This document shows, in pieces, positions 7,174 to 64,000 of a stretch of 64,000 nucleotides of DNA. Source of the stretch: Pseudomonas fluorescens (GTDB taxonomy: Bacteria > Pseudomonadota > Gammaproteobacteria > Pseudomonadales > Pseudomonadaceae); assembly GCF_000730425.1 (NCBI RefSeq), contig NZ_CP008896.1:930001-994000 (forward strand), written 5' to 3'. Made by a program: the position numbers and the translations under genes. Numbering within the stretch: the stretch's first letter is position 1; each line of letters opens with the position of its first letter. The notes beneath the pieces were generated by a model. It made no database searches, was not told the DNA's origin, and worked only from the letters and a program-made list of their open reading frames with translations.

Positions 7174-7202
7174 AAAAAAAGGAAACCGTAGCTTCCTTTT
7201 TT
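7174..7202. terminator. Bidirectional intrinsic terminator
   Basis: AAAAAAAGGAA and TTCCTTTTTT flank an 8-nt loop between the converging DUF1345 and autotransporter genes. A-tract and T-tract allow it to work in both directions. Confidence 0.75.
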
Positions 7203-42256: not shown

Positions 42257-42519
42257 GTATTGATGCTCCCAACTACAAATAAAAAATGTGTGACACAGTT
42301 TATAGCGCAATGACGAATTAGTCCGGCGCCAATCGCACTAGTTTCATCAGAAAAAGAGGCCATCGTTTCACCATCATTGGCTGAAAAGTCACAACGACCA
42401 TAAAAAATAAAAAAGTTCCCTTGAGCAAAAAAAGAAATCAGAATCGCCCCCGACTCCTGCCAGGGCTTCGATTCAAACACTCTGGCACCGCGATACACCG
42501 GCTATTTGCGAGGTAAGCA

Positions 42520-55379: not shown

Positions 55380-56210
55380 CTACTGATGCACGGCGAGCTG
55401 GTAGGCCGTGTATTTACGAATATTGATGACGCCGGTATCGAAGATCAGGTATTGGCCCTTGACCCCCAGCAGCGTGCCTTCGGCAATCGGGTTCTTGTCC
55501 AGGTTGAAGCTGACGATCTTGGCCGGATATTGCGCCACCGGGTAACGGATTTCGAGGGGTTCGATATCCGTTACCGGTTGGATGGCCTGTAGGCCAAAGC
55601 GTTCCTGCAATTGCAGCAGACCGTCGGCGCAGGAGACGAACAGCTCGTCACGCACCTGCTTGAGGTCCACCGCCGCCGCATCCCCCTTGAGCAAAGCGCG
55701 CCAGTTGGTCTTGTCAGCCACCTGGCTGCGCAACACATCCTCGACGAAGCCTGATTGCTGGCGCGTGGCCACACGCATGATCGGCAAGGCCTGGCTAGCG
55801 CCCTGGTCCAGCCAGCGCGTGGGCAACTGGGTCGCGCGGGTGATGCCGACCTTGATCCCCGACGAGTTCGCCAGGTACACCACATGGTCGGTCATGCAGA
55901 ATTTTTCGCCCCAGGCCGGTTCGCGGCAGGTGCCGGCATCGAAATGGCAGCGTTCGGGGCTCATGATGCACAGGTCGCACTGGGCCAGCTTGGTCATGCA
56001 CGGGTAGCAATAGCCCTGGCTGAAGCTGGTCTTGGTCTTGCGTCCGCAGTGGGTGCAGTGGATCGCACCGAGGTATTCCAGGCGCACATGAGTGCCAATC
56101 AACGGGTTGACCGGCACCTCGGTATCGCCCAGGCGAAAAGCGTATTGAACGGTCGGCGAACCCAGTTGCGCCGACATCTTGCTGACTGCACCACGGCCAA
56201 TCTCAATCAA
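55380..56210 (-). CDS. DUF2797 protein with Cys-rich zinc-binding-like segment
   Basis: 276-residue protein. A TTG at 56210 is the most likely start: it overlaps the yeaC stop as TTGA, has GGATG upstream and gives the family N-terminus (IEIGRGAVSKMSAQLG). An ATG at 56177 would shorten it by eleven residues; a longer frame to 56267 would run deep into yeaC. A Cys cluster (IHCTHCGRKTKTSFSQGYCYPCMTKLAQCDLC) looks like one or two zinc knuckles. VYLANSSGIKVGITRATQLPTRWLDQGA resembles a GIY-YIG-like strand pattern. Function unknown. Confidence 0.82.
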   Translation of the reverse strand: MIEIGRGAVSKMSAQLGSPTVQYAFRLGDTEVPVNPLIGTHVRLEYLGAIHCTHCGRKTKTSFSQGYCYPCMTKLAQCDLCIMSPERCHFDAGTCREPAWGEKFCMTDHVVYLANSSGIKVGITRATQLPTRWLDQGASQALPIMRVATRQQSGFVEDVLRSQVADKTNWRALLKGDAAAVDLKQVRDELFVSCADGLLQLQERFGLQAIQPVTDIEPLEIRYPVAQYPAKIVSFNLDKNPIAEGTLLGVKGQYLIFDTGVINIRKYTAYQLAVHQ

Positions 56211-56467
56211 TGGATGGCATCCGACTTGAACAGGATATTTTCCACCGGGGTCGACTTCGATTGGCACTCCTGCGGGCCCATATAGCCAGTGCGCTGGTCT
56301 TCCGGCAGGTTTTGCAGCTCCCAGGCGATCATCGCCTGCAACGACAGTTCACGCTGTTCGGCAGTGAGCTTGCGGCCATCGGACCATTTGCCGATTTCCA
56401 CGGCGAGCTTGAGGCTTTGATAGATATCCGGGGTGATGTTTTCGATCATTTCAGCAAAAGAGGACAT
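56207..56467 (-). CDS. yeaC: YeaC-family (DUF1315) small protein
   Basis: 86-residue cytoplasmic protein, MSSFAEMIENITPDIYQSLKLAVEIGKWSDGRKLTAEQRELSLQAMIAWE, ending in a Cys/Lys-containing tail. This matches the DUF1315 family (E. coli YeaC), whose function is unknown. It is 30 bp after glpG and overlaps the DUF2797 start, in the middle of the nadK-zapE operon. Confidence 0.87.
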   Translation of the reverse strand: MSSFAEMIENITPDIYQSLKLAVEIGKWSDGRKLTAEQRELSLQAMIAWELQNLPEDQRTGYMGPQECQSKSTPVENILFKSDAIH

Positions 56468-56497
56468 AAGACTCTTCCTTCAATAATGGGCAGAGAT

Positions 56498-57367
56498 TCA
56501 AGCGTTACGTTTATGGCGGCTGTACAACCCGCCGAGCAACCCGGTGATGCAACCGGCCACCAGGCCGCCAACATGGGCCGCATTGGCGATTTCGCCGAAG
56601 CCGATCATCGAGACCAGGCCCGACAGGCACAACACCAGCCACACCAGCATCATCACCAACACGCCGCGCGGCAGGCGATAGGCCGGGTTCGGCGCGAGCA
56701 TCTGGTAGATCCAGCAATGACCCAGCAGGCCGTACAGCACGCCGGACAAACCGCCAAACAGGCCCGGCCCGCCAAAGGTGTATTGCGCGAAGTTGGAAGC
56801 CAGGCTGAACAGTAACGTCAGGCCCAGCAGGTTGATGCTGCCCTGGCGCGCCTCGATACGCCGCCCCAGCTCCCAGTACCACATGCCATTCATCGCCAGG
56901 TGGAGGATGCCGAAGTGGATCAGCATCGGCGTCACCAGGCGCCACCACTGCCCCGCCGCCAGGCTATCGGCCAGAGGGGTGAAGTACAGGTATTCACCGG
57001 CCACCCGGAAGTTCAGGAACGTCAGCCAGCTCATCGCTTGCAGGTTGTCGCCCAGCATCGTGACGGCGCCGACGATCAGGCTCAGCAGCAACACACCGGC
57101 AGTCAATGGGCTGTGGCGCAATTGCTGGAGGAAACCGGGACGCGCAGTCACCTGCTCGCGGGGAATATCCAGTTGCTGGTCCGGGTCGCCGGCGGGGAAT
57201 CGCTGATACAGGCTGCGCACGTCCTCGCTGATCGCGTCCGGCACCCAGAGCACCTGTTCGCCGGCCTCTTCACTGACGCGATGAGGCACCTGCATGCGTT
57301 GCAACAGCTTGACGAAGCCGCCCAGGTCCACACTCAGGGGCAAACGCAATACCGCAACGGTACTCAT
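56498..57367 (-). CDS. glpG: Rhomboid-family intramembrane serine protease
   Basis: 289 residues with an N-terminal cytoplasmic domain (about 1-80) and six or seven membrane helices, as in GlpG. The rhomboid active site is complete: HFGILHLAMN (His151, Asn160) in the second helix, nucleophile Ser208 in GGLSGVLYG, and catalytic His265 in ANAAHVGGLVAG. It cleaves single-pass membrane substrates, which are not identifiable here. It overlaps the upstream phosphatase gene by four bases. Confidence 0.9.
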   Translation of the reverse strand: MSTVAVLRLPLSVDLGGFVKLLQRMQVPHRVSEEAGEQVLWVPDAISEDVRSLYQRFPAGDPDQQLDIPREQVTARPGFLQQLRHSPLTAGVLLLSLIVGAVTMLGDNLQAMSWLTFLNFRVAGEYLYFTPLADSLAAGQWWRLVTPMLIHFGILHLAMNGMWYWELGRRIEARQGSINLLGLTLLFSLASNFAQYTFGGPGLFGGLSGVLYGLLGHCWIYQMLAPNPAYRLPRGVLVMMLVWLVLCLSGLVSMIGFGEIANAAHVGGLVAGCITGLLGGLYSRHKRNA

Positions 57368-58335
57368 GAAATCACCTCGGGGCGCTCGACATCGACCCAG
57401 ACGAACTTGTTCGGATCAAGGCGCGTTTCCTGGTCCAGGCGGTACGCCACCAACTTGCCGTACAGCACAGCACTGTAGTCCAGGCAGGCCAGGTTCGAGC
57501 GGATCGGCGCCGGTTTGCCGCTGCGCCAGTAATGGCCGACGAACAGCAACGGCTCGTCGACGCCATAACGCAGCAGGGAGTTCTTCTCGCTTGACGACAA
57601 AGGCGTGCGCGCCACCGGGTCGGGCAAGGCATCGGGCTGGAACACGATATCGCCGTAGGTTTTCGGGTCATCTTCCCAGAATTTGGTGCGAAAGAACGAG
57701 CGGGTCAGGCCATCGCCACCGGTCAGCGTCAACCCGTCCGGCAGGCGCATGTCGGTGCCGCGCAGCAGGCGGTCGAAGGCATTGCAGGCGAAACTGCCCG
57801 GCACCGCAGCCGCCTGCAGGAAGTGCTCGTCGATACAGCCGTCCGGGAATTGCCGGCGCAGAGGCTCGATCAGCCCACCGTCCCAGCAGGCGTGCACCAC
57901 CCGGAAACGCCCGGCGTCGACAAACAACGGCATGTCATAGAACCAACCGAGGAAGTCGTGCCAGTCGCCCGGGTGATGCTCGAATTGGGTCAGGGTCTCG
58001 TGGATCAGCCGTGCGTGGCGTGGCGAATGCTCACGCACGTACTGCTTGCCGCTGCCCGGCGGCGCGAGGGTGCTCCAGCCCAGGGCGTTGAACTCATGGT
58101 TGCCCATGATGCACAGGGCCTGGCCGGCTTCGGCCATGTCATGGACGATATGCAGCGCCTCGCGAATACGTGGCCCACGGTCGATGATATCGCCCAGGAA
58201 CACCGCCATGCGTGAAGGATGGCGCCAGGTGCCGCCCTGCTTGTGGTAACCCATCTGGTCGAGCAGGTGCTCAAGGGTGTGAGCGCAACCGTGCACGTCA
58301 CCGATCAGGTCGTAGCTACGCGCGGGATCGAGCAT
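57364..58335 (-). CDS. Calcineurin-like metallophosphoesterase
   Basis: 323-residue phosphatase of the serine/threonine protein phosphatase or diadenosine tetraphosphatase type. All metal motifs are present: GDVHG (12-16), GDIIDRG (48-54), GNHE (78-81), and later HACWDGG and FVGHYW His residues. ATG 58335 overlaps the nadK stop (TGATG); a frame to 58386 would start inside nadK. Its place between nadK and glpG is suggestive of nucleotide metabolism but the substrate is unknown. Confidence 0.88.
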   Translation of the reverse strand: MLDPARSYDLIGDVHGCAHTLEHLLDQMGYHKQGGTWRHPSRMAVFLGDIIDRGPRIREALHIVHDMAEAGQALCIMGNHEFNALGWSTLAPPGSGKQYVREHSPRHARLIHETLTQFEHHPGDWHDFLGWFYDMPLFVDAGRFRVVHACWDGGLIEPLRRQFPDGCIDEHFLQAAAVPGSFACNAFDRLLRGTDMRLPDGLTLTGGDGLTRSFFRTKFWEDDPKTYGDIVFQPDALPDPVARTPLSSSEKNSLLRYGVDEPLLFVGHYWRSGKPAPIRSNLACLDYSAVLYGKLVAYRLDQETRLDPNKFVWVDVERPEVIS

Positions 58336-59225
58336 CAGTCGCCTCCACCCCCCAAGCGGCTGCCCCAGCCCAGCTTGGTGCGGCACACTTCGTAGTAGTT
58401 GTGGTCCAGCGGGTGGATCAACCGCAGCTTTTGCGCCTTTTTGCTCACGGTGATGGTGTCACCGGGGGCGCAGGTAAAGTGGTTCTGCCCGTCACAGGAG
58501 ACTTGCGGGTAGATCTGCATGTCTTTGGAGACCACGATTTTCAGCTCACTGTTGCCATCGACCACAATCGGCCGGCTCGACAACATATGGGGGTACATCG
58601 GCACGATCACAATGGCGTCGAGCTTGGGATGCATGATCGGCCCGCCGGCAGACAGTGCGTAGGCCGTGGACCCGGTGGGCGTGGCGACGATCAGGCCGTC
58701 GGCCTTCTGGCTGCAGACGAACTGACCGTCGATATACAGCTCGAACTCGATCATCCGCGTCGACTTGCCAGGGTGCAGCACCACGTCGTTGAGGGCATCG
58801 CCCTGGCCGATGGCTTCGCCATGGCGGCGCACTTCGGCTTGCAGCAGGAAGCGGTTTTCCACCAGGTAATGGCCGTCCAGCACCTTGGCCACTTCGACTT
58901 CCAGGTCATCAGGACGGATATCGGTGAGGAACCCCAGGCTGCCCCGGTTGATCCCCAGCACCGGCACGTTATGCCGCGCCAGGGCACGGGCCGCGCCGAG
59001 CAGGCTGCCGTCGCCACCGACCACGATCACCATGTCACACACTTCACCGAGCATTTTGCGCGACGAGGTCTGCAGGCCGTGGCCCGGCAGAATCTCCGCG
59101 ATGGTGTCTTCGAGGATCACATGCAGGTGGCGCTCAAGCAGAAACTTTTTCAGCCGGCGGACCGTGTCCAGAACCTGGGTACTGCCCAGGCGACCGATGA
59201 TGCCGATATTGCGAAATTGCTCCAT
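58335..59225 (-). CDS. nadK: NAD kinase
   Basis: Phosphorylates NAD+ to NADP+; 296 residues. Diagnostic motifs: IVVGGDGSLLGAAR with GGDGS (70-74), GINRGSLGFLTDI, NDVVLHPG, TPTGSTAYALSAGGPIMHP and a C-terminal Asp/Gly segment PQVSCDGQNHF. It is first in a seven-gene operon whose members overlap or are very close. It is divergent from the DUF1853 gene. Confidence 0.97.
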   Translation of the reverse strand: MEQFRNIGIIGRLGSTQVLDTVRRLKKFLLERHLHVILEDTIAEILPGHGLQTSSRKMLGEVCDMVIVVGGDGSLLGAARALARHNVPVLGINRGSLGFLTDIRPDDLEVEVAKVLDGHYLVENRFLLQAEVRRHGEAIGQGDALNDVVLHPGKSTRMIEFELYIDGQFVCSQKADGLIVATPTGSTAYALSAGGPIMHPKLDAIVIVPMYPHMLSSRPIVVDGNSELKIVVSKDMQIYPQVSCDGQNHFTCAPGDTITVSKKAQKLRLIHPLDHNYYEVCRTKLGWGSRLGGGGD

Positions 59226-59379
59226 GGGGCTCCTGCGGGGTTTGGGTCTGGCAAAAAGAACGATTATGGGCGAAAGGCCGCTTTAGACAAAATCCTTTGT
59301 CGCCGCAAGGCCCAGACGACAACGGTTCTCAACGCCCGACACCGTCACGCGGCGAGTAGGAAACAGCTATGCTCGGAGC

Positions 59380-60327
59380 ATGAATCCGTTTCCCGACCTG
59401 CACCACTTGCCCCGTCAGCTGCGCCATCCCGAGGTGCGGGATCTGGCGTGGGTGATCCTCGCCCCGCCGATGCTGCAACAAACACCCTGGCCGCAACGTC
59501 ACCCCCTGGCCGGCAGCGAGTGGGTGCAGCAGCCTGCCGCACTGGCAAAGTGGCTCCGGCAGCTGGATCAGGACAGCACTGCCCTGCAGCATTGGCTGAG
59601 CCTGGCGCGCACCCGGCGCCTGGGCCTGTATTACGAACGCCTGTGGCAATTTGCCGTGCAACACGCTCCCGGCGTGGAGCTGCTGGCGGCCAACCTGCCG
59701 ATCCGCCAGGCCGGGCACACCCTGGGCGAGTTGGACATGCTGCTGCGCGACCGTGACGGCGTGCACCACCTGGAGCTGGCGATCAAGCTTTACCTGGGCC
59801 CGCAAGATGGCAACGGCCGTGATACCGCGCAATGGCTGGGCCCAGGTTGCCACGACCGCCTGGATCGCAAGTTGGCCCATCTGGCTGACCATCAACTGCC
59901 CATCTCGGCCAGAGAGCAAAGCCGGGAGGTGCTGGCGGCGTTGGATATCCAACAGTTCGACGCCCATCTGTGGCTGGGCGGTTACTTGCTGTACCCCTGG
60001 CCCGCAGAGGCTGATCCGCCCCTTGGCGCCCATCCCCAGCATTTGCGCGGGCGCTGGTTGCATCAGCGTGACTGGCCGGACTTTATCCGCAACAGTCCCG
60101 CCGGCCGCTGGCAACCCCTGCCCCGGCATGCCTGGCTCGCGCCCGCGCACTACCCGGCAGAAGACGTGTGGAGTGAAGAACAGATGCAGCGCTGGCTCGC
60201 CGACCTTGACCCGATGGCGCCGGCGCAATTATTGGTGCGCATGATTCAGAACGGCGCAGAGTGGGAGGAAGCCGAGCGGCTGTTTCTGGTGGCGGATCTT
60301 TGGCCGAATGTGCCAGGGGCAGGTTGA
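59380..60327 (+). CDS. DUF1853 family protein
   Basis: 315-residue soluble protein, rich in Trp, Leu and Pro. [19 protein letters not shown] near the start and the later [33 protein letters not shown] and GELDMLLRD...[12 protein letters not shown] look like a PD-(D/E)xK nuclease core: E, D and ExxxK arranged across strands. The DUF1853 name is recalled from the N-terminal signature. Whether it cuts nucleic acid is unknown. Divergent from nadK. Confidence 0.75.
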
Positions 60328-60349
60328 TATATCTGGGGGCGGTTGAGGG

Positions 60350-60430
60350 CCTCATCGCCGGCATGCCGGCTCCTACAGTTGACCGAGCACATCCATTACT
60401 GTGGGAGCTGGCTTGCCAGCGATAGCGCCA
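60350..60430. repeat. REP pair in inverted orientation
   Basis: Inverted CGCCGGCATGCCGGCTCCTA and direct TGTGGGAGCTGGCTTGCCAG bracket about 20 bp between the converging DUF1853 and VWA genes. Confidence 0.78.
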
Positions 60431-60439
60431 GGCACAGCA

Positions 60440-61102
60440 CTACAAACTATCAATATGCCAATAATCCACCCGCAACCCGACAGCCAGCTCCCGCGCCCGA
60501 CCCAAGCGGATCGGCCCACGCTCAATATCCACCAGCAAGCCCTGGCACTCCAACAATGGCAGTGCGCCGATGTCTTTCAACCGGCCATCGGTAATCACCA
60601 ATAACCGCTGCTGTTCAGCCGGATACCGCTTGCGCCGTGCCACCAGCCAATCCCCAGCCGCGATCAAGGCCGCCAGCAACGGTGTTCCTCCGCCCGCGCC
60701 CAGCCCATCCAACCAACGCCCCAGGTCTTTCACCGCTTTCAAGCCTTGGACCTGCCAGCTCGGCACCTGCCCGCTGGCCGTCAGCAGCGCCATGCGCGCG
60801 CGCTGTCGATAGGCGTCGTCGAACACCTGTGCCAGCAAGCCCTTGGCATCGCTCAACGCCTGATGCCGCCGCGTGGAGGCTGACGCATCGACAATCACCA
60901 GCCACAACTCATGGGCCGAACGGCTGCGCAGGTGGAAGCGCAAGTCTTCACGGGATTGCGGCCTCCCCCCCAACAAGGTACCCGGCCAGTTGACCGAGCC
61001 CTGCTGCGCGCTGCGCGACTGGCCCTGGCGGCCTCTGTCCAGTCGCCCCGCCTTGGGACGGGCATCCGCCCCCTTATCAGTTCGGGGGCGGATGCCTAGG
61101 GC
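60440..61102 (-). CDS. chlD: VWA-domain (ChlD-like) portion, reached by -1 frameshift from chlI
   Basis: Codes for 220 residues in the -1 frame relative to the end of chlI. It starts with a basic linker (ALGIRPRTDKGADARPKAGR) and continues to a von Willebrand A domain whose MIDAS motif DASAS lies in ELWLVIVDASASTRRH, with VITDGRLKD further on. It ends YWHIDSL. The region from 61102 to 60979 has no ATG, GTG or TTG codon in frame; the first is a TTG at 60976, which would cut the linker. Together with chlI this gives a 551-residue AAA+/VWA protein like the middle subunit of chelatases. The alternative is independent initiation at TTG 60976 or a CTG at 61114. Confidence 0.8.
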   Translation of the reverse strand, partial: ALGIRPRTDKGADARPKAGRLDRGRQGQSRSAQQGSVNWPGTLLGGRPQSREDLRFHLRSRSAHELWLVIVDASASTRRHQALSDAKGLLAQVFDDAYRQRARMALLTASGQVPSWQVQGLKAVKDLGRWLDGLGAGGGTPLLAALIAAGDWLVARRKRYPAEQQRLLVITDGRLKDIGALPLLECQGLLVDIERGPIRLGRARELAVGLRVDYWHIDSL

Positions 61103-61127
61103 TTTTTTGGCCAGGCAGGCACTTCCC
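61062..61127 (-). promoter_or_regulatory. Programmed -1 ribosomal frameshift signal in chlI/chlD
   Basis: Reading the minus strand: SD-like GGGAAG (61127-61122), 13-nt spacer, slippery heptamer A-AAA-AAG (61108-61102) in the chlI frame, CCC TAG stop, then a perfect 12-bp stem GCATCCGCCCCC / GGGGGCGGATGC (61095-61062) with a 10-nt loop, starting 6 nt after the heptamer. All three stimulatory parts of a classical -1 site are in place. Confidence 0.85.
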
Positions 61128-62094
61128 GGCGAGCGCCCATGGGCAATGCAGGTGCGGGCATTTCACCCCACTGACCTTGGCCTGACGAGTTGCCTGAAGG
61201 CTGGGGCGCCTGGCCCTGATCGGGCGTGCTCGCAGGCGAGGATTGCGCCTGGCGACGATGGCGCAGGGCAAACTCGGCCACGGCCTCTATATCTTCCTCA
61301 GCGATGGCCGCAGCCCCCCGCCACGCCGCATGGGCCCGCGCCCCGCGCAACCACACCAGGTCGGCGCGCAGGCCATCGACGCCAGCGGCAAAGCAGCGCT
61401 CGGTAATCTGCGCCAAGGCCTGGTCATCCAGGGCGATGCTGTCCAGGCGTGTGCGGGCCTGGGTGCAACGCTCGCGCAACGCCGCCTGCTGGTCGGCCCA
61501 CTGTGCACAAAAGGCGGCAGGGTCGCTGTCGAAATCCAGGCGCCGGCGAATGATCTGCCCACGCTCGGCCGGCACCGTCTGCCCGCTCAGCGCCACATTG
61601 AAACCGAAGCGATCCAGCAACTGCGGGCGCAACTCGCCTTCTTCCGGGTTCATCGTACCGATCAGCACAAAACGCGCCGAGTGCCGGTGGGAAATACCAT
61701 CGCGCTCGATCAGGTTAGTGCCGCTGGCGGCCACGTCGAGCAACAGGTCCACCAGGTGATCGGGCAGCAGGTTGACTTCATCCACGTACAACACACCGCC
61801 GTCAGCCTTGGCCAGCACGCCCGGGGAGAACTGCGCGCGACCTTCGGCCAGGGCGGCGTCCAGGTCCAGGGTGCCTACCAGGCGCTCTTCGGTGGCGCCC
61901 AGGGGCAAGGTGACAAACTGCCCGCTGACCAACAGGTCCGCCAAGCCACGGGCCAGGGTGGACTTGGCCATGCCACGGGGGCCTTCGATCAGCACGCCGC
62001 CGATTTTCGGGTCGATGGCGGTCAGGCACAGCGCCAGCTTCAGGTCGTCGGCGCCGACCACAGCCGACAAGGGAAAATGGGAGGTGTCAGTCAT
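61096..62094 (-). CDS. ChlI-type AAA+ ATPase of the cobaltochelatase cluster (zero-frame product)
   Basis: MoxR/ChlI-type ATPase that would power metal insertion by CobN; 332 residues if translation stops at TAG. Walker A GPRGMAKST (38-46), Walker B GGVLYVDEVNLL (99-110), sensor FVLIGTMNPEEGELRPQLLDRFGF with the arginine finger, and a Gln/Pro/Ser-rich tail (about 295-320). ATG 62094 overlaps the cobN stop by one base (TGATG). The last codons CCA AAA AAG CCC TAG form part of a frameshift signal, so a fraction of ribosomes should continue into the VWA domain. Confidence 0.9.
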   Translation of the reverse strand: MTDTSHFPLSAVVGADDLKLALCLTAIDPKIGGVLIEGPRGMAKSTLARGLADLLVSGQFVTLPLGATEERLVGTLDLDAALAEGRAQFSPGVLAKADGGVLYVDEVNLLPDHLVDLLLDVAASGTNLIERDGISHRHSARFVLIGTMNPEEGELRPQLLDRFGFNVALSGQTVPAERGQIIRRRLDFDSDPAAFCAQWADQQAALRERCTQARTRLDSIALDDQALAQITERCFAAGVDGLRADLVWLRGARAHAAWRGAAAIAEEDIEAVAEFALRHRRQAQSSPASTPDQGQAPQPSGNSSGQGQWGEMPAPALPMGARREVPAWPKKP

Positions 62095-64000
62095 CAGCTG
62101 TCTTCTTCTATGTCCAACAACAGGTTTTCCAATGCCTCGCGATACGCCCCCGGTTCCTGCCACATGCCCCGCTGCTGGGCTTCCAGCAGGCGTTCGGTCA
62201 TGTCGCGCAGGGCACCAGGGTTGTGCTGTTGCACAAACGCCCGGGTATCGGGGTCGAGCAGGTAGGCATCGGCCAGCAAGGCGTATTGATGATCGTCGAT
62301 CAGCGCGGTAGTGGCGTCAAAGGCAAACAGATTGTCCACCGTTGCCGCCATCTCGAATGCGCCTTTATAGCCGTGGCGCTTGACCCCCTCGATCCACTTG
62401 GGATTGGCCGCTCGGGAACGGATTACCCGGCTGAGTTCCTCCTTCAGCGTGCGGATTTTCGGCAGGTCCGGCTGGCTGTGATCGCCATGATAACTGGCCG
62501 CCTTGGCGCCACTGAGGGTTTCCACGGCGGCAAGCATACCGCCCTGGAATTGATAGTAGTCATTGGAGTCGAGCAGGTCGTGCTCGCGATTGTCCTGGTT
62601 CTGCAGCACGGCCTGCACCTGGCCCAGGCGCTGGGCGAACTGTTCACGGGCGGCGGTGCCTTCGTCAGCACCGCCATAGGCGTAGCCGCCCCAATTGAGG
62701 TAGACCTCGGCCAGGTCCTCGCGGTTTTGCCAGAGGCGCCCGTCAATGGCGCCCTGCACGCCCGCACCATAGGCACCTGGCTTGGCGCCGAAAATGCGCC
62801 AGCCGGCTTGCCTGGCCGCGGTCTCTTCATCCAGGCCAGACTCAAGCAGCGCGTCGCGCTCGCTGCGCACCTTGGCCGCCAGTGGGTTCATGTCGTCCGG
62901 TTCTTCCAGTGCCGCCACCGCCTGCACTGCAGCATCAAACAGGCGGATCAGGTTGGCGAAGGCATCGCGAAAGAACCCGGACACCCGCAGCGTCACGTCA
63001 ACTCGCGGGCGGTCCAGCACGCTGATGGGCAGGATTTCAAAGTCATCCACGCGCTGGCTGCCCGTGGCCCACACCGGCCGCACGCCCATCAGCGCCATGG
63101 CCTGGGCGATATCGTCACCGCCGGTGCGCATGGTTGCGGTGCCCCACACCGAAAGCCCGAGTTGACGCAGATGGTCGCCATGGTCCTGCAGGTGCCGCTC
63201 AAGCATCAGGTTCGCGGACTGAAAGCCAATACGCCACGCAGTTGTGGTGGGCAGGTTGCGCACGTCGACGGTGAAGAAATTACGCCCGGTCGGCAGCACA
63301 TCGAGGCGCCCGCGGCTCGGCGCACCACTGGGCCCCGCCGGCACGAAACGACCGCCCAGGGCATCCAGCAAGCCGCGCATTTCCGCCGGCCCGCAGGCGT
63401 CCAGGCGTGGCGCGACAACGATGCGCAGGCTTTCGATCACGGACTTCACCTCTTCCCAGCCGGGCTCCTCAAGCTGTTCGAGCGGCCCTTCCAGCGCCTG
63501 CTCGATCAACCGCGCCGCATACAGCTCCAGGCGCTCACGGGTATCGCCAGCGGTGCGCCACAACTGCCCGTCGATCTTCTGCAGCATCTCAGGGCGGCGC
63601 CCGGTCCAGGGCTCGGCCAGGGCACAGTCCAGCGGGTCAAAGCCCAGCTCGAAGGCCTTGGCCAACACCCGCAACAGACTCGATTGCGGGCCTCGCCCGT
63701 CGCCACGCGGAATGCGCAGCAGGGCCAACAAGGTGTCGATACGCAGACGGCCTTCGGGCGACTCGCCAAACACATGCAGGCCGTCGCGGATCTGCGACTC
63801 CTTCAAGTCGCACAGGTAAGTGTCCAGCCGCGGCAACCAGACGGCTGCGTCGGCGTCGTTATCCAGTTCGAGCTCTTGATCGATGCGGGTTTCGCGCACC
63901 AGCTTGAGGATGTCCTTTTGCAGCTCCAGGGCGCGTCGCGGGTCGAGCAACTGCGCCTCGTAGTATTCGTCTGCCAACAACTCCAGGTTGCGCAGCGGGC
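62094..64000 (-). CDS. cobN: Cobaltochelatase subunit CobN (5' part beyond window edge)
   Basis: C-terminal 635 residues of the large chelatase subunit, which inserts cobalt into hydrogenobyrinate a,c-diamide in aerobic cobalamin synthesis. Visible landmarks are LPTGRNFFTVDVRNLPTTTAWRIG, LSVWGTATMRTGGDDIAQAMALMGVRPVW, RPRVDVTLRVSGFFRDAFANLIRLFD and the typical C-terminus (AATVDNLFAFDATTALIDDHQYALLADAYL). The frame is open to the end of the window, so an apparent start at 63980 is internal. It is followed without a gap by chlI and the VWA region. Confidence 0.95.
   Translation of the reverse strand, partial: PLRNLELLADEYYEAQLLDPRRALELQKDILKLVRETRIDQELELDNDADAAVWLPRLDTYLCDLKESQIRDGLHVFGESPEGRLRIDTLLALLRIPRGDGRGPQSSLLRVLAKAFELGFDPLDCALAEPWTGRRPEMLQKIDGQLWRTAGDTRERLELYAARLIEQALEGPLEQLEEPGWEEVKSVIESLRIVVAPRLDACGPAEMRGLLDALGGRFVPAGPSGAPSRGRLDVLPTGRNFFTVDVRNLPTTTAWRIGFQSANLMLERHLQDHGDHLRQLGLSVWGTATMRTGGDDIAQAMALMGVRPVWATGSQRVDDFEILPISVLDRPRVDVTLRVSGFFRDAFANLIRLFDAAVQAVAALEEPDDMNPLAAKVRSERDALLESGLDEETAARQAGWRIFGAKPGAYGAGVQGAIDGRLWQNREDLAEVYLNWGGYAYGGADEGTAAREQFAQRLGQVQAVLQNQDNREHDLLDSNDYYQFQGGMLAAVETLSGAKAASYHGDHSQPDLPKIRTLKEELSRVIRSRAANPKWIEGVKRHGYKGAFEMAATVDNLFAFDATTALIDDHQYALLADAYLLDPDTRAFVQQHNPGALRDMTERLLEAQQRGMWQEPGAYREALENLLLDIEEDS

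Follow-up and report, generated by a model that had tools for sequence, protein, structure and literature searches.

Results

ChlI-like and VWA-domain halves meet in two reading frames

On the minus strand of the window, by which we mean the whole 64,000-nucleotide stretch of Pseudomonas fluorescens DNA analysed here, the 3' part of cobN is followed by an open reading frame (ORF) for a ChlI-like AAA+ protein and, in the -1 frame relative to that ORF, by a coding region for a basic linker and a VWA domain (Table 1). The TGA of cobN and the ATG of the chlI ORF share one base (TGATG). The 0-frame ORF matches the Pfam families AAA_lid_2, AAA_5 and Mg_chelatase as well as solved ChlI structures, and the VWA half matches VWA_2 above the Pfam cut-off and the BchD structure 2x31_A. 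Among the NCBIfam models, the ChlI half matches TIGR02442 and BchI-ChlI, both under the whole-protein cut-off. TIGR02442 (putative cobaltochelatase) is common to the two halves: the ChlI side covers its positions 88-327 (best stretch) and the VWA side positions 459-583. Neither half by itself reaches the whole-protein cut-off of that model. The 551-aa joined product aligns over residues 5-546 with a fused ChlD of a different genus in the same order (L254), at 45% identity over 573 columns.

Table 1. Features at the cobN-chlI-VWA locus, in window coordinates.
Feature	Position	Strand	Remarks
cobN, 3' part	62094..63980	-	TIGR02257 cobalto_cobN, 896.6 bits against a cut-off of 822
0-frame ORF, ChlI-like AAA+ protein	61096..62094	-	332 aa, ends WPKKP-TAG; short product, putative small subunit
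SD-like element GGGAAGTG	61120..61127	-	5' of the slippery site
Slippery heptamer A_AAA_AAG	61108-61102	-	In chlI phase, CCA AAA AAG CCC TAG
0-frame TAG	61098-61096	-	One codon 3' of the heptamer
13-bp stem, 5' arm	61084..61096	-	Folding and pair statistics
13-bp stem, 3' arm	61061..61073	-	Folding and pair statistics
-1 frame, basic linker and VWA domain	60440..61102	-	220 codons and stop; C-terminal part of the putative medium subunit

An earlier reading of the sequence without database searches (the sequence-only reading) had proposed that a programmed -1 frameshift makes two chelatase subunits from this one gene. Most of its account of the junction was reproduced: GGGAAG lies 13 nt upstream, at 61127-61122, the coding sequence for the VWA domain goes on in -1, joining the two frames gives a protein of 551 residues and the heptamer is in chlI phase, but the heptamer stands one codon before the TAG and not two as had been stated. 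The frames at the heptamer are open for 402 codons upstream in frame 0 and for 220 codons in -1. Of the 12 copies of AAAAAAG in the window, only the one at the junction combines a long 0-frame ORF, a stop 3 nt on and a long -1 frame; it is also the only one at which the end of a long ORF and a long -1 continuation are accompanied by a strong hairpin. The motif itself is commoner in the window than expected (12 vs 4.75, with none of 100 shuffles having as many), and two close pairs of copies lie at 42409-42434 and 7175-7202.

The CobS and CobT subunits of a canonical CobNST enzyme were not found: neither CobT (PF06213) nor CobS (TIGR01650) had a match in the host genome at E-values up to 0.001. 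Searches of the same genome recovered neither a second close ChlI (next best, 31% identity) nor a second VWA half. What we did find is the arrangement of a frameshifted chlD (fs-chlD) gene, with a ChlI-like AAA+ domain in frame 0 and a VWA domain in -1, adjacent and in that order, an in-phase A-rich heptamer in their overlap and a predicted structure downstream, in a cobN-bearing genome where no separate small-subunit gene was found. Should the chelatase require a small subunit, our searches turned up no candidate for it other than the short product. The host has two Lys tRNA genes, both with anticodon UUU, and no CUU anticodon was present among the 68 of 69 Rfam tRNA hits that ARAGORN typed, the weakest hit being untyped. 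In E. coli, tRNA-Lys(UUU) is slip-prone at A_AAA_AAG.

The slippery heptamer is fixed across Pseudomonas

The Pseudomonas-wide alignment proposed with the sequence-only reading was carried out on 249 genomes of the genus. The VWA half was present in 234 of these and the junction was inspected in 233, one genome (G075) being left out as its contig starts within the VWA part. In the analysis as a whole, locus L433, with its ChlI side missing, was also set aside. The remaining 15 genomes, those without a VWA half, also had no ChlI match at E-values up to 1e-10; 12 of them had no CobN match at E-values up to 1e-30, and 3 had only a distant CobN of 32-33% identity. A CobT match above the Pfam cut-off was seen in 6 of these 15 (G040, G041, G059, G184, G221 and G241), where it possibly marks a different type of chelatase or a VWA protein with no relation to one, and also in 6 genus genomes that have a VWA half. 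Among the 80 named loci described below, the VWA halves nearest to that of the host, at 90-91% identity, are those of Pseudomonas sp. WS 5079, P. gessardii and P. proteolytica.

The -1 layout was found in 225 of the 233 genomes, and A_AAA_AAG stands in phase at every one of these 225 junctions. These counts rest on junctions actually read and not on ORF length; some long open frames could be taken for fusions, but the one of 564 aa in G028 (L085) proved at the junction to be an ordinary -1 case. The heptamer was present in four of the other eight genomes (L069, L118, L185 and L088), where additional breaks of frame, bases left undetermined or the end of a contig disturb the layout; for L088, available only from shortly before the heptamer, it was read by eye. 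It was absent from the last four (G079, G051, G033 and G215), the first three of which have broken frames nearby: ChlI is split over two frames in G079, VWA and cobN are each in two pieces in G051, and ChlI and cobN are each in three pieces in G033. G215 (L168) is heptamer-less with an altered junction, at which VWA is +1 relative to chlI; its ChlI, VWA and cobN otherwise look intact, both cobN matches lying within one open frame.

We compared the heptamer with the rest of the coding region by aligning the 225 junctions codon by codon and taking the 259 columns whose residue is at least 95% conserved, Met and Trp excluded. The commonest third base has a median frequency of 0.68 over these columns, and the only third bases that are fully fixed (1.00) are those of the two heptamer Lys codons; at the four other Lys columns the commonest third base reaches 0.52-0.75. 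The base 5' of the two Lys codons is A in 225 of 225 rows despite a varying codon (CCA, GCA, ACA and others), and a non-A base precedes the run of six A in 221 of 225. A second collection of 80 named loci, all titled Pseudomonas, overlaps the genus sample and is not independent of it; 78 of the 80 show AAAAAAG followed by three bases and a stop triplet, a count of the pattern irrespective of phase. In the other two, the stop directly follows the heptamer (L341, Pseudomonas sp. efr-133-TYG-5) or the A run is shorter and a second frame break lies in ChlI (L317, Pseudomonas sp. TH31).

Paired base changes retain the 0-frame stop

The distance from heptamer to stop is nearly constant. At the 225 junctions with the -1 layout, the 0-frame stop comes one codon after the heptamer in 222, immediately after it in 1 and 21 nt on in 2. 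Two of the stop-forming bases vary (A/G and G/A), and they do so in pairs that retain a stop: TAG is formed from Leu CTA or TTA (or Val GTA) with Gly GGC, and TGA from Leu CTG or TTG with Ser AGC. The combination T-G-G, which would abolish the stop, occurs in none of the 225 rows, with 44.3 expected under base independence. The tree requires stop identity to change only 8 times, and with no more than 4 independent pairs available to the sign test on supported branches (median p 0.25) the number of independent stop events is modest.

A stem-loop and an SD-like element flank the heptamer

Downstream of the heptamer, after a 5-nt spacer, positions 61096-61084 pair with 61073-61061 in a 13-bp stem around a 10-nt loop, with a folding energy of -31.4 kcal/mol (z -5.7; none of 200 shuffles equally stable). 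The stem described earlier as 12 bp long and beginning after 6 nt is the same one; the length and spacer given here follow once the G of the TAG is counted. In the genus-wide alignment a stem is predicted downstream in most loci, with variable length. We examined its pairs in the 223 of 225 rows long enough for the tree, of which 197 are in the stem register, defined by at least 9 of 13 pairs, a filter that favours paired rows. At the pair formed by bases 10 and 35, the 197 in-register rows have C-G in 86, T-A in 78, T-G in 33 and C-A in 0; the change at base 35 swaps Asp for Asn and the change at base 10 is silent. Because the register filter was applied, the C-A zero is partly a selection effect: unfiltered, the pair is standard in 210 of 225 rows and non-standard in 15, of which 8 are C-A, and out-of-register rows may have stems of other length. 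The unfiltered count makes the case from the stem slightly weaker and does not alter those from the heptamer and the stop. On the tree, this pair gives 4 independent pairs on supported branches (median p 0.25), too few for significance. Taken over all stem pairs, 0.867 are paired against 0.841 with shuffled partners, a small covariation because most pairs are nearly invariant.

Upstream of the heptamer, the 8-mer GGGAAGTG pairs with the anti-Shine-Dalgarno (anti-SD) sequence at -6.4 kcal/mol in the host. Across the genus, the mean at the SD-like spacing is -3.76 kcal/mol, below 98% of background positions, with 5 of 94 background blocks equally low. The element stands out from the background only moderately, and we take it as a putative, if probable, stimulator of the shift.

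The same junction occurs outside the genus

In other genera of the family, 77 genomes matched and 33 loci were inspected, one of which lacks the ChlI side. All 32 readable loci, which are spread over 11 other genera, have the -1 layout; the slippery site is A_AAA_AAG in 31 and A_AAA_AAA in 1, and the stop stands one codon further on. At the level of the class, a search of 369 genomes yielded 15 matches in addition to the host itself, and all 15 loci were inspected: 8 are fused in a single frame, 5 are split and 2 have no close ChlI partner. The 5 split loci carry A_AAA_AAG in 4 cases and a run of ten A in 1 (L251), with the stop again one codon later; the slippery sites of L252 and L261 were read by eye, and the -1 phase of L261 was derived from coordinates.

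Four of the other-genus loci of the family carry, upstream of chlI on the opposite strand, the Rfam small RNA P15 (RF00627) above its gathering cut-off (L411:136-256, L412:137-257, L413:3318-3437 and L414:3350-3469), and L085 has a piece of P15 below the cut-off that is clipped by the end of the stretch examined. P15 was not found at 56000-64000 of the window, where cobN overlaps chlI directly.

A model for the junction and its alternatives

Judged on sequence, the frameshift interpretation of the earlier reading is supported, and the locus is very probably an fs-chlD gene of a CobN-type cobalt chelatase that would give a short and a long product by a -1 shift. The junction anatomy and its conservation are established directly, and searches found no other small-subunit gene. 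In the model we propose, ribosomes would translate the AAA+ half first, and at A_AAA_AAG a fraction of them would slip back by one base with tRNA-Lys in both sites, aided by the downstream 13-bp stem and probably also by the SD-like element. Ribosomes that do not slip would stop one codon on and release a 332-aa small subunit (ChlI-like), and those that slip would continue to a 551-aa medium subunit (ChlD-like, with AAA+ domain, basic linker and VWA domain). That the shift occurs, with what efficiency, and that its products assemble with CobN into a cobaltochelatase, we infer.

The VWA protein could instead be the product of a second gene, begun at a codon of its own by translational coupling or reinitiation past the chlI stop. 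The earliest ATG, GTG or TTG in the host VWA frame, a TTG at 60976, opens a 178-aa ORF, and among the 203 of 225 rows that have the reference motif, 106 relatives carry at least one such codon in the linker (ATG in 12); the claim that the linker has no start codon is thus true of the host and fails as a general rule. However, the TTG at 60976 sits within a conserved W..TL stretch with no candidate before it, 97 of the 203 relatives have no start codon at all from the junction to the motif, and conservation in the -1 frame begins right at the junction, mostly as ALGIRP or ALSIRP. Coupling, moreover, would not require two Lys codons to keep their third bases fixed or to be preceded by an A. An ordinary VWA start together with loss of the conserved heptamer, which had been named beforehand as the observation that would speak against a frameshift, was not seen among the relatives checked, and we regard two separate genes as very unlikely. 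The run of A could also act at another level, transcriptional slippage at the six A giving a mixed mRNA population. Ten A are present in one class-level relative (L251), and the cassettes tested in print carried 7 to 11 A (PMC3711429). In nearly all genus rows, though, six A precede the G, whereas the cited text ties such slippage to runs of at least 8 (PMC3711429), and transcriptional slippage needs neither the A_AAA_AAG phase nor a downstream stem; we consider it extremely unlikely as the source of the long product.

If the two frames were instead a sequencing error or one broken gene, a pseudogene, extra frame breaks of the kind seen in a few relatives (L069, L075, L118, L119 and L171) would be in keeping, as would the pieces of cobN in G051 (= L119) and G033 (= L171), the cobN check having covered L075, L119 and L171 among these relatives. 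Against this, the identical break with its heptamer recurs in 225 of 233 genus genomes and the break in 32 of 32 other-genus loci (one with A_AAA_AAA), both sides of the junction are strongly conserved as protein, and the host genome is a single contig listed as 100% complete, so that we give this explanation practically no weight. The hairpin, for its part, might be a terminator or a small RNA and not a frameshift stimulator. It overlaps sub-threshold Rfam hits to P35 (21.1 vs 70 bits, plus strand) and P17 (15.2 vs 45 bits, minus strand), and six T in a row lie a few bases past the stem on the plus strand; termination of an antisense transcript is therefore possible. On the coding strand no T run follows the stem, and at 56000-64000 of the window no Rfam family reaches its gathering score. 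A terminator scan, restricted to loops of 3-8 and hence blind to the 10-nt loop, found none. When 28 related loci were searched for P35 and P17 as catalogued small RNAs at this position, no match appeared at E-values up to 1; matches as weak as those of the host could be lost at that search size, so that only a strong match is excluded; a literature search for either as a junction element found nothing. The chance that the hairpin serves such a role in place of stimulation appears minute.

Discussion

A frameshift of this kind is already published, in a genus already named for it, and the statement of the sequence-only reading that the mechanism is known was right even for Pseudomonas itself (PMC3711429, PMC5009743, PMC9227772). 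Antonov et al. (2013) group 23 fs-genes with a -1 shift into a magnesium chelatase cluster, Pseudomonas included, and report frameshifting of 63, 40 and 10% for related cassettes with 11, 9 and 7 A (PMC3711429). Atkins et al. (2016) print a Pseudomonas protegens stem almost identical to that of the host, describe the A_AAA_AAR shift site as under strong purifying selection and speculate about cation binding and a role in regulation (PMC5009743). Kuznetsov et al. (2022) use the name fs-chlD, propose that small and medium subunits for CobN come from one gene, and place P. aeruginosa in stage 8 of their table (PMC9227772).

The host junction resembles fs-chlD in that a -1 shift within an A-rich site would link the AAA+ and VWA halves, and nothing essential differs from the passages on fs-chlD in these papers. 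The cassettes described there as tested in 2013 had 7, 9 or 11 A, whereas the host site is A6G with a 13-bp stem (PMC3711429). The P. protegens element shares the stem start CTAGGCATCCGCCCCC with the host and differs in the loop and a few stem bases (PMC5009743). The junction is also like E. coli dnaX, which has A_AAA_AAG, an upstream SD-like element and a downstream hairpin (PMC3711429); an SD-like stimulator is a dnaX-type feature, for which the fs-chlD passages state no requirement. The shift yields the shorter of the two products in dnaX, whereas in the host fs-chlD it would yield the longer. The two-subunit idea was reportedly introduced by Antonov in 2020 (Mol Biol Evol). In the passages that we consulted, no measured efficiency for a Pseudomonas A6G junction was found, and we do not claim that none exists.

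That the fixed stop spacing is part of the mechanism is our own suggestion. Together with the G+C-rich stem, the rigid spacing might set a tuned ratio of short to long product and make the frameshift a control point of cobalt insertion, an idea that we put forward as unlikely; such a ratio could possibly respond to metal or polyamines. If this were true, the frameshift would do more than yield two subunits.

To the published picture our analysis adds genus-wide counts, a view of how strong and how widespread conservation is, and the paired changes by which the 0-frame stop is retained. It supports a single functional B12-pathway gene at a place where gene-finding software would call two; the small and medium subunits would then have the same AAA+ domain in common. 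With a heptamer in phase at 225 of 225 junctions and a stop retained through paired changes, the Pseudomonas locus offers a clean, testable case for frameshifting of the A6G type.
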